Assembly: GCF_900177685.1 (NCBI RefSeq)
Contig: NZ_FXAY01000001.1
Coordinates: 806,001-870,000, forward strand
Source: Agreia pratensis
GTDB taxonomy: Bacteria > Actinomycetota > Actinomycetes > Actinomycetales > Microbacteriaceae
Direction: 5' to 3'
Length of the DNA stretch: 64,000 nucleotides
Shown here in pieces: positions 1,905 through 4,135 of this stretch; the stretch's first letter is position 1; every line of letters begins with the position of its first letter. Below the pieces are notes generated by a model, which was not told the DNA's origin, made no database searches, and saw only the letters and a list, made by a program, of their open reading frames with translations. The position numbers and the translations under genes are program-made.

Positions 1905-1935
1905 TTGACATGCGGAGTCATATTCCGCTTAGCTT
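1905..1935 (+). promoter_or_regulatory. Probable promoter of a leaderless leader ORF
   Basis: TTGACA at 1905-1910 and TAGCTT at 1930-1935 are 19 bp apart. Counting six bases past the -10 puts transcription start on the A of the ATG at 1942. That would give a leaderless mRNA, a common arrangement in Actinobacteria. The spacing is slightly longer than the optimum of 17-18 bp. Confidence 0.5.
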
Positions 1936-1941
1936 TCGTTC

Positions 1942-2043
1942 ATGACTGACAACGCGCTCGCCCTTACCTCCTTTGAGGCACTGGGGACTGCTGGCATGAT
2001 GATGCCCAGCAGCGCTGTCATGTGTTGCCGAATGTGTGCCTAA
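1942..2043 (+). CDS. Putative 33-residue leader peptide with Cys-rich C-terminus
   Basis: A 33-codon ORF begins at the predicted transcription start and ends about 220 bp before the winged-helix regulator gene. The peptide starts MTDNALALTSFEALG, has three Met in a row, and ends MCCRMCA, so three Cys codons are packed into its last six codons. No signal peptide or membrane helix is visible. Known actinobacterial Cys-rich upstream ORFs work as cysteine-responsive attenuators by stalling ribosomes at Cys codons. The position, size and downstream hairpins fit that model, but the link to cysteine is inference. It could also be a chance ORF. Confidence 0.55.
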   Translation: MTDNALALTSFEALGTAGMMMPSSAVMCCRMCA

Positions 2044-2094
2044 TCAGACACTGCGCCTGACAATCAGGTTCGCTCGGTTCTGAGGTCTGCTTCT

Positions 2095-2147
2095 CTCTTT
2101 AACGAAAGAGGCCTCCGTTCCCCCGCCTGGTTCTGACTCTCAGAACC
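2095..2147 (+). promoter_or_regulatory. Two hairpins in the leader between the small ORF and the regulator gene
   Basis: CTCTTT/AAAGAG (2095-2110, 4-nt loop) is followed by a perfect 8-bp hairpin, GGTTCTGA/TCAGAACC, with a 3-nt loop at 2129-2147. Further copies of GGTTC and GGTTCTGA upstream (about 2067-2083) could pair alternatively with TCAGAACC. Such mutually exclusive pairings are what an attenuator needs. No long U-run follows, so if this is an attenuator it would act on translation or through Rho. Confidence 0.4.
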
Positions 2148-2260
2148 ACTCGCGGTCTCCGGCTGTAACGCCGCACCATTCGCACAACCCGCCCTGGGGC
2201 ATCCGCTTCGTCGCCGTATCCGGCCGGAGCCCACGGGCACCTCATCGAAGGATTTCTCCC

Positions 2261-3028: not shown

Positions 3029-4135
3029 ATGGGTGCAGAACTGACGCTGGGCGCAGAAGAAGAACTCCACCTCATCGACCTCGAGTCGTGGCGGTTGTCG
3101 GCCTCGGCTCCACAGCTTCTCCAGCAGCTCGACGCGGCGAGCTACGGCGCCGAACTTCAGCGCACAACCGTCGAGACGAACACCGGGGTGGTGCAGACGT
3201 TGGCGGGGCTCCGGGCAGAGCTCGTGCGTCTTCGCCGAGGGGTGATGGATGTCGCCCGTCCGCTGGGCGTGGGCATCGCGGCCGCCGGCACGGCGCCACG
3301 GTCGGAGATCTCCGACTTCGAACTCACCAGCTCACAGCGATTCGGTGCGATGCAAGAGAAGTATCGGCTGCTCGTCGACGAGCAATTGATCTGTGGATTC
3401 CAGGTTCACGTCGGTGTAGCCGACCGCGACCTCGCCGTGCAGCTCGCACAGCGGGTTGCCGATCGTCTCCCTGTTCTTCTCGCTCTGTCAGCCAGCTCGC
3501 CGTTCTGGAACGGCCACGACACCGGCTATGCGAGCGTGCGAAGCCTGGTCTGGCAGCGCTGGCCCAGTGCGGGAGCGACGGGCCCCCTCGCCTCCGCCGC
3601 CGAGTACGACGAACTCATCTCTGATCTGATCGATACCGGGGTGATCGCCGACAGCAAGATGGCGTACTTCGACGTACGCCCATCTGCCCACGTCCCCACC
3701 CTCGAACTGCGCGTCTGCGATGCGCTGCCCCTCGTCGACGACGCCGTGCTGATCGCGGGGCTCTTCCGCGCCGCCGTGCGGTCTGCGGAGATCGACATCG
3801 AGAGAGGGGTTCCTCTGCAGGCTCGGCGCGCACCCATTCATCGGGCGGCCCTGTGGCAGGCCTCCCGCACCGGGCTCTCAGCCGAGCTTCTCAGCGCGGG
3901 CCCGCACCCGCACCCGCTCGACGCGGCGGATGCCGTGCGCGGCTTGGTCGACGACCTCAGGCCCGCGCTCGACGAGTTCGGCGACTACGCGGTTGTGCGC
4001 GATCTGGCGGAGCAAGCGCTCGGCCGGGGCAACTCATCCGACCGCCAGCGCGCAGCATTCGCGAGTCAGCAGAGCCTCGACGACGTCATGCGACTGGTCG
4101 TCGGCGAGACGCAGTCGATCGGAGAAGGACCATGA
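3029..4135 (+). CDS. YbdK-type carboxylate-amine ligase (glutamate-cysteine ligase family 2)
   Basis: About 368 residues, normal for the family. Recognisable segments are GAEEELHLID at the N-terminus (metal and ATP site), TVETNTG, CGFQVHVGV and ASSPFWNG. YbdK proteins ligate glutamate to an amine such as cysteine, but many members have another, unknown substrate, so a glutathione or mycothiol role should not be assumed. Start choice: ATG at 3029 gives the conserved N-terminus; a GTG two codons earlier is possible, and neither has a strong ribosome site. Its stop overlaps the next start by 4 bp (ATGA), so the two genes are translationally coupled. Confidence 0.85.
   Translation: MGAELTLGAEEELHLIDLESWRLSASAPQLLQQLDAASYGAELQRTTVETNTGVVQTLAGLRAELVRLRRGVMDVARPLGVGIAAAGTAPRSEISDFELTSSQRFGAMQEKYRLLVDEQLICGFQVHVGVADRDLAVQLAQRVADRLPVLLALSASSPFWNGHDTGYASVRSLVWQRWPSAGATGPLASAAEYDELISDLIDTGVIADSKMAYFDVRPSAHVPTLELRVCDALPLVDDAVLIAGLFRAAVRSAEIDIERGVPLQARRAPIHRAALWQASRTGLSAELLSAGPHPHPLDAADAVRGLVDDLRPALDEFGDYAVVRDLAEQALGRGNSSDRQRAAFASQQSLDDVMRLVVGETQSIGEGP

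Follow-up and report, generated by a model that had tools for sequence, protein, structure and literature searches.

We analysed a stretch of 64,000 nucleotides from Agreia pratensis (contig NZ_FXAY01000001.1), hereafter the window, in which a very short open reading frame precedes a gene for a winged-helix transcriptional regulator. The following features were annotated at this locus:

1905 to 1935, + strand: candidate promoter, with TTGACA at 1905-1910, a 19-nt spacer and TAGCTT at 1930-1935 (direct reading)
1942 to 2043, + strand: leader ORF of the leaderless type, 33 codons, MTDNALALTSFEALGTAGMMMPSSAVMCCRMCA
1967 to 1978, + strand: small hairpin CCTC-CTTT-GAGG, lying within the TSFEA codons of the leader (CCTC-N3..5-GAGG occurs in 58 of 94 leaders)
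1988 to 2012, + strand: hairpin H2, with stem CTGCTGG/CCAGCAG and loop CATGATGATGC containing three Met codons (stem tested against recoding)
2020 to 2037, + strand: Met-Cys-Cys-Arg(CGA)-Met-Cys codons, proposed as regulatory codons along with the three Met codons of H2
2177 to 2188, + strand: CATTCGCACAAC, a doubtful pairing partner, complementary to GTTGCCGAATG of the leader apart from a small internal loop (CATTCG is enriched; missing in most loci)
2201 to 2210, + strand: ATCCGCTTCG, which could pair with CGAAGGAT over the Shine-Dalgarno (SD) sequence of the regulator (direct reading; the alignment shows changes in some species)
2242 to 2252, + strand: ribosome-binding site (RBS) region TCATC-GAAGGA, whose TCATC complements GATGA of the leader loop over 5 bp (CATCATC in two sister species)
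2261 to 2965, + strand: regulator, with an OmpR/GlnR-type winged helix (Trans_reg_C, residues 142-215) and an unmatched N-terminal domain (Pfam)

The TAGCTT box ends 6 nt before the leader ATG at 1942, by direct reading in the window, and the two boxes fit a predicted transcription start at, or adjoining, this ATG. The ORF has contiguous Cys codons near its end, CC plus one more C. The promoter, with its 19-nt spacer and TAGCTT as -10 box, was not listed in a consensus promoter scan of the window. In homologous leaders, a -35-like box TTG[AC][CAG] lies at the right spot in 88 of 93, a -10-like box T[AT]NNNT was found in the interval upstream of the leader ATG in 48 of 93, and both are present together in 45 of 93, against 0.77 expected with shuffled upstream DNA (locus L117 and the loci L065-L068 of family f6 are outside this test). 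Since the boxes recur at the right distance in homologues, we consider the promoter arrangement to be real despite the miss in the scan.

The winged helix Trans_reg_C is the sole Pfam match of the regulator (E=1.3e-21). Its nearest PDB neighbour is GlnR, with 45-47% identity to GlnR from S. erythraea (Foldseek; 8hml, 8hig, 8hih). In the N-terminal part we detected no Response_reg match and only scattered weak matches, in at most 3 of 48 members, and the predicted model of this domain (mean pLDDT 76) found nothing in the PDB at E below 3.2. The first-pass annotation had read here a TTGACA/TAGCTT promoter in front of a 33-codon ORF with a Cys-rich end, hairpins after its ATG, and a regulator devoid of phospho-receiver about 220 bp further on. 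Indeed, promoter and ORF are present as described, one hairpin with Met codons in its loop (H2) was found, the distance from leader stop to regulator ATG is 217 nt, and the regulator has the winged helix and no receiver-domain match in its N-terminal part.

We then have to consider how far this arrangement is conserved. The nearest named relatives of the window are Agreia. Upstream DNA could be read in seven Agreia genomes; the 33-residue peptide is identical in six of them, and the seventh (G006) shows four residue differences; in the alignment, the DNA 3' of the leader stop drifts among Agreia while the peptide holds. More widely, the regulator is present in 240 of 249 Microbacteriaceae genomes. 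Of the 128 regulator loci that we oriented, 108 belong to Microbacteriaceae; L008 and L049, which lie at contig ends, were left out. A strict regular expression, describing an ORF that ends in CRMCx or close to that, detected the leader in 94 of these 108 Microbacteriaceae loci. Ten further loci carry diverged leaders rich in Met and Cys (L129, L135, L137, L138, L139, L143, L148, L150, L151 and L152), the leader of L151 ending in ..SMCMCMCMCR and that of L152 in ..CMMMCCSMML. In four Microbacteriaceae loci (L109, L141, L144 and L145) the leader or its Cys motif is lost or truncated. L145 has upp directly upstream of the regulator. In L141 and L144, from small-genome relatives that have lost the leader, a -10 box seems to lie directly before the ATG of the regulator, which itself looks leaderless there. 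Among named records the leader was observed in 79 of 80 loci, the remaining one being interrupted by a contig end; genome-set loci and named records overlap, and these counts are not independent.

The Microbacteriaceae leaders have an approximate consensus MTxNAxxLTSFEAxGxAGMMMxxxxVMCCRMC(A/R) and are 25-42 codons long, most commonly 33 (64 of 93). In nine diverged leaders CGAATG is always in frame as Arg-Met, though its distance from the start varies. An in-frame repeat of MMPVL lies within the leader of L117 (genome G136). By all the signs that the sequence offers, the leader is a translated ORF.

Beyond its peptide, the leader shows constraint on its hairpin and on its codons. A perfect H2 stem of at least five pairs is present in 79 of 94 leaders, against 42.4 after synonymous recoding, and the stems change on both sides: CTGCTGG/CCAGCAG in the window, CGCCACC/GGTGGCG in L085 and GTCGACAC/GTGTCGAC in L092. 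When covariation was scored in a fixed register, which mixes two registers, 274 of 378 cells were paired, against a permuted mean of 249.5 (sd 3.6, max 264). The Arg codon of the motif is CGA in 92 of 92 leaders, against 123 of 900 Arg codons (14%) in the 37 genes of the window; the Cys codons of the leader are mostly TGT, a codon used for 8 of the 69 Cys codons in these genes. Pairing of the CCRMC codons with the gap was rejected as a full explanation of the invariant CGA, since the native codons bind it no better than recoded ones and CATTCG is present in a minority of gaps.

A tadA-like deaminase gene (711-1268, - strand) lies about 0.7 kb from this leader whose Arg codon is always CGA. The product of tadA deaminates A34 of tRNA, which is required for reading CGA codons. 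In 75 of 80 named loci, the 5-kb flanks of the regulator include both tadA and upp, and the proximity of tadA to a CGA-bearing leader is probably a coincidence. Between tadA and a cation-efflux-like gene, at 530-720 of the window, we observed several near-identical copies of GTCGAGTAGGCCGCCCGCGGC together with an inverted relative. Among the genes tested, upp is the constant neighbour (76 of 80 named loci). Directly 3' of the regulator lies a YbdK/glutamate-cysteine-ligase-like gene (3029-4135, + strand); glutamate-cysteine ligase was rejected as a conserved partner, being near the regulator in 4 of 80 named loci, all from Agreia.

Leaders before the same regulator were also observed in other families. 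In family f12, all 29 loci examined (from 40 genomes, all with the regulator; three of these loci coincide with earlier ones) have a Met-rich leader of the type MTSIAAHRETAPRVVRSAMRAMMFMMMMPMMHRQPSL, ending in ..MMFMMMMPMMHRQPSL, with few Cys. In family f6 (30 loci examined, from 41 genomes, all with the regulator), 23 of the 30 carry leaders combining Cys codons and Arg-Met, with ends such as MCCCRMHA or RCCRMQA, and the pattern used found no leader in the other 7. CC or CCC is present in many f6 leaders and absent from most of the Met-rich f12 leaders. Single loci elsewhere end in ..SSMPMCRCACCCQN (f9) and ..RMCPAGMCMLCVRCR (f7); in L074 (f7) and several f6 loci the rules applied found no leader. 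Thus leader sequence and length differ between families while Met and/or Cys near the 3' end persists, as codon-based sensing predicts. That the leader before one and the same orthologous regulator can be either Cys-ending or a Met run amounts to a natural experiment on which leader feature is selected. In the f12 loci L077 and L079-L082, the last leader codons GTCAGCCGA (of RQPSL) are perfectly complementary to TCGGCTGAC, located a few tens of nt downstream. In the same loci, TCGGCTGAC is followed by a strongly conserved GC-rich sequence with no Rfam match at gathering score, which may be an unrecognised structured RNA.

The composition of the regulator points to the same amino acids. The window regulator, 233 residues long, contains no Cys and no Met after the start, which is unique among the 37 predicted genes of the window. 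The same absence of internal Met and of Cys was observed in 59 of 68 genome-set orthologues and in 70 of 73 named ones, two overlapping sets (the count covers proteins of 151-399 aa whose stop lies inside the locus, and thus 73 of the 80 named loci; 40 loci were left out). For comparison, 19 OmpR-type sequences of the same genus, forming about three paralogue groups, contain a mean of 3.6 Met and 1.4 Cys per 230 residues, and none of them is free of both. The regulators of f12 have exactly one internal Met in all 26 measured (a start rule being applied) and a mean of 0.12 Cys; those of f6 (n=30, about 270 residues) have means of 1.13 Met and 0.10 Cys, both being zero in 10. Such a Met/Cys-poor composition is what a protein made during Met or Cys shortage would look like. 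Since Met and Cys persist near the leader end and the regulator is nearly free of both, the signal is probably the sulfur amino acids and not cysteine alone.

We also examined the gap between leader and regulator, and in particular the RBS region, taken from 36 nt upstream of the regulator start codon. CATCATC, which complements the leader loop AUGAUGAUG, is present in the RBS region of 39 of 94 loci, against 4.7 in dinucleotide shuffles, and in 27.5% of the 80 named regulator loci, against 0.9% of 430 other genes. ATCAT is kept at the RBS in four of the seven leaders that have no ATGATG. A second group of loci has ATTCGAC at the RBS, the complement of GTCGAAT in the leader (12 of 94, against 0.6 expected). 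Within 50 nt, neither RBS motif was found in 29 of 94 loci, among them the window, which has the 5-bp TCATC match only. Complementary runs of at least 8 between the Met-codon segment and its own RBS region occur in 35 of 94 loci; the corresponding numbers are 2.7 for shuffled and 22 for swapped RBS regions. Those between the CCRMC segment and the gap occur in 15 of 94, against 4.3 with shuffled and 9.6 with swapped sequences. CATTCG is present in 21 of 98 leader-to-regulator gaps, against 3.7 expected. UCCUU of the small hairpin also complements the SD sequence AAGGA of the regulator; over the 94 leaders, this complementarity was no better than with swapped RBS regions. In energy calculations, the native CCRMC codons did not bind the gap, nor the last 17 leader codons the RBS, better than synonymous recodings. 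The f6 loci L065-L068 are outside all these 94-locus tests.

In a nested folding model, a ribosome placed on the leader did not raise mean SD accessibility (0.387 for free leaders, 0.381 with the ribosome at CC, 0.398 at the stop), and with the ribosome at MMM we observed a small fall, to 0.361 against 0.387 (Wilcoxon p=0.01). Simple nested sequestration of the SD, lifted by a stalled ribosome, was rejected on this ground. The contact proposed here between the H2 loop and the RBS is a pseudoknot, which a nested model cannot represent.

We propose that the locus is a ribosome-operated sensor of sulfur amino acids acting by translational attenuation, a reading to which we give a probability of about 70%. 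Transcription would start at the leader ATG, and a ribosome would translate the leader. With Met- and Cys-tRNA charged, it would finish the leader and leave; the free leader RNA, namely the H2 loop with its Met codons and the CCRM codons, could then pair with the RBS region, and little regulator would be made. In a shortage of Met or Cys, the ribosome would stall on the Met or Cys codons, covering the anti-RBS segments, and the regulator would be translated; without internal Met or Cys, it could be completed during the shortage. By analogy with the proposal made for the LEU element and its Leu codons, the natural reading would be that the sensed codons double as the lock on the RBS. Sensing by the leader is well supported by the anatomy of the locus; the stalling, the direction of control, the output step (translational and not transcriptional) and a sulfur-scavenging regulon are inferred, and nested folding did not support the output step. 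Several results count against the proposal: besides the folding, these are the 29 loci with neither RBS motif, the four leaders lacking ATGATG that still face an ATCAT, the native codons that bind gap and RBS no better than recoded ones, the four Microbacteriaceae and seven f6 loci described above as lacking the leader or its Cys motif, the roughly one internal Met of f12 and f6 regulators, and the searches for targets and for a metE leader reported below.

The first-pass annotation had recognised the layout of a stalling attenuator with a leaderless leader ORF, and the conserved ORF and the Met/Cys-rich leaders across families bear it out in kind. The comparison of upstream regions across Microbacteriaceae that it had suggested shows conserved Cys and Met codons and a conserved Met-loop hairpin. 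Its proposal of a regulator whose own translation reports cysteinyl-tRNA levels is too narrow as to the amino acid, in view of the f12 leaders. Methionine, which it had rightly mentioned as a possible signal, fits these Met-rich leaders and the presence of both Met and Cys in the Microbacteriaceae leaders. For redox sensing, which it had also raised, we found nothing that speaks in favour.

The same sensing could have a transcriptional output, in which the gap, C-rich and mostly untranslated, is a Rho-dependent attenuator, and a stalled or terminating ribosome decides on the passage of RNA polymerase. The 98 gaps are indeed C-rich and G-poor (7456 C and 4378 G) and variable in length and sequence, and Rho was suggested for mycobacterial cys leaders (PMC1262725). 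However, this output does not need the enrichment of leader complements at the regulator RBS, and a scan listed no terminator-like hairpin on the + strand within 2044-2260. We consider it rather unlikely.

Alternatively, the peptide itself, through its C-terminal CRMC and the invariant CGA, could arrest the ribosome on a small molecule, Met and Cys being contact residues and not limiting codons. High conservation of the CRMCA/R end, in peptide and in codon, would agree with such an arrest. However, C-termini as different as RQPSL, CMCMCMCR and CCSMML precede the same regulator, which codon content fits better, and a nascent-chain arrest appears improbable.

Copper is bound by Met, Cys and His, all three of which abound in the leaders; a leader peptide that binds Cu(I) or is oxidised, altering stalling or release as in copper-responsive upstream ORFs, is thus conceivable. 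Copper-dependent translational control by a nascent protein has been reported (PMC9973294). However, the residues in question are at the extreme C-terminus, presumably inside the exit tunnel when translation ends, the near absence of Met and Cys from the regulator is explained by sulfur limitation and not by copper, and upp is the only one of the tested genes that is constantly next to it, all of which makes metal or redox sensing very improbable. Finally, a riboswitch-like structured RNA with an incidental ORF, which the conserved hairpin and the near-invariant RNA motif UGYCGAAUG could suggest, is hardly credible, given a start codon at the predicted transcription start, an open frame whose motif stays in frame over the whole range of leader lengths, a Met/Cys content that outlasts the sequence, and no Rfam match (two tRNAs are the only matches of the window at gathering score, and 1850-2350 has none up to E=1).

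The sensing of sulfur amino acids proposed here has to be placed in the sulfur metabolism of the family. Of 120 Microbacteriaceae genomes, 19 gave a PAPS_reduct match; in the other 101, this genome among them, none was found, while all 14 control genomes score. With NIR_SIR, four of eight Agreia genomes gave no match and the other four one match apiece, within frames some 890-930 codons long; these matches were rejected as sulfite reductase and taken for NirB instead. Leifsonia xyli is described as lacking any genes for assimilatory sulphate reduction (PMC1266029). Since most Microbacteriaceae have no PAPS_reduct match, a dependence on organic sulfur is likely for most of them. Leaders also occur in genomes having PAPS_reduct (e.g. 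G035, G070 and G084).

Searches for a regulon in the own genome gave no convincing target. The promoter palindrome has ten other matches, in open frames of at least 161 codons or in one tRNA-like stretch, and the leader motif has 44 other matches with 1-2 mismatches, the nearest of which falls within a long open frame. Before metE, eight Agreia genomes showed no conserved leader rich in Met and Cys and gave two far, unconserved candidates.

Organic sulfur supply should be critical for most of the Microbacteriaceae sampled, and this locus offers a candidate sensor together with a candidate master regulator. More broadly, it may be a master switch for sulfur starvation that operates family-wide in Micrococcales, with the ribosome as sole sensor, Met codons as the lock on the RBS and a regulator built free of Met and Cys; this wider view is tentative, and we would put it at slightly under even odds. 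It would combine two principles that we have not seen together, codon-limited translation as sensor and a responder from which the limiting residues have been purged. In the open-licence papers searched, in the parts available, we found neither a description of this leader-regulator system nor an account of how Microbacteriaceae sense organic sulfur.

Polycysteine attenuators consisting of leaderless short ORFs were reportedly described in mycobacteria by Canestrari et al. in 2020. In two papers (PMC13236596, PMC9031893), the cysteine genes of M. smegmatis are given as an example of translation attenuation, in which a stalled ribosome lifts a block of the RBS and Cys codons slow the ribosome when cysteine is short. 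As described there, these attenuators have in common with the window a leaderless short ORF at the 5' end, its Cys codons and a proposed translational control downstream. However, they act on enzymes of Cys metabolism whereas the window leader precedes a transcription factor, and, unlike them, leaders of the window type have Met codons as prominent as Cys or replacing it, Met codons that complement the RBS in many loci and a target with almost no Met or Cys.

Seliverstov et al. (2005, PMC1262725) describe the actinobacterial LEU element upstream of leuA, whose run of Leu codons can pair with the SD of leuA. The element shares with the window a run of sensed codons in a leader ORF that can pair with a downstream SD, in a predicted pseudoknot, but it combines Leu codons with leuA where the window combines Met and Cys codons with a regulator gene. 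The same source reports leaders from "acnes" and that of cbs in B. longum which, like that of the window, have runs of Cys codons near the stop and no terminator; unlike it, they belong to biosynthetic operons and have Cys only. A classical transcription attenuator has an intrinsic terminator with a U-run, a feature missing from the scan of the gap mentioned above. For a translational attenuator, the complementarity between leader and RBS holds as a family-wide enrichment, though it comes to 5 bp in the window and is absent by motif in the 29 of 94 loci already mentioned.

As for the protein, the regulator shares its winged-helix DNA-binding domain with GlnR, an actinobacterial orphan of the OmpR type, but differs from it by an N-terminal domain with no convincing Pfam or PDB match and by its lack of internal Met and of Cys. 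With OmpR/PhoB response regulators it shares Trans_reg_C, but their receiver domain has no match in it. Taken as a unit, leader and regulator should belong to the known kind of amino-acid-responsive leader ORFs, with the signal widened from cysteine to the sulfur amino acids.
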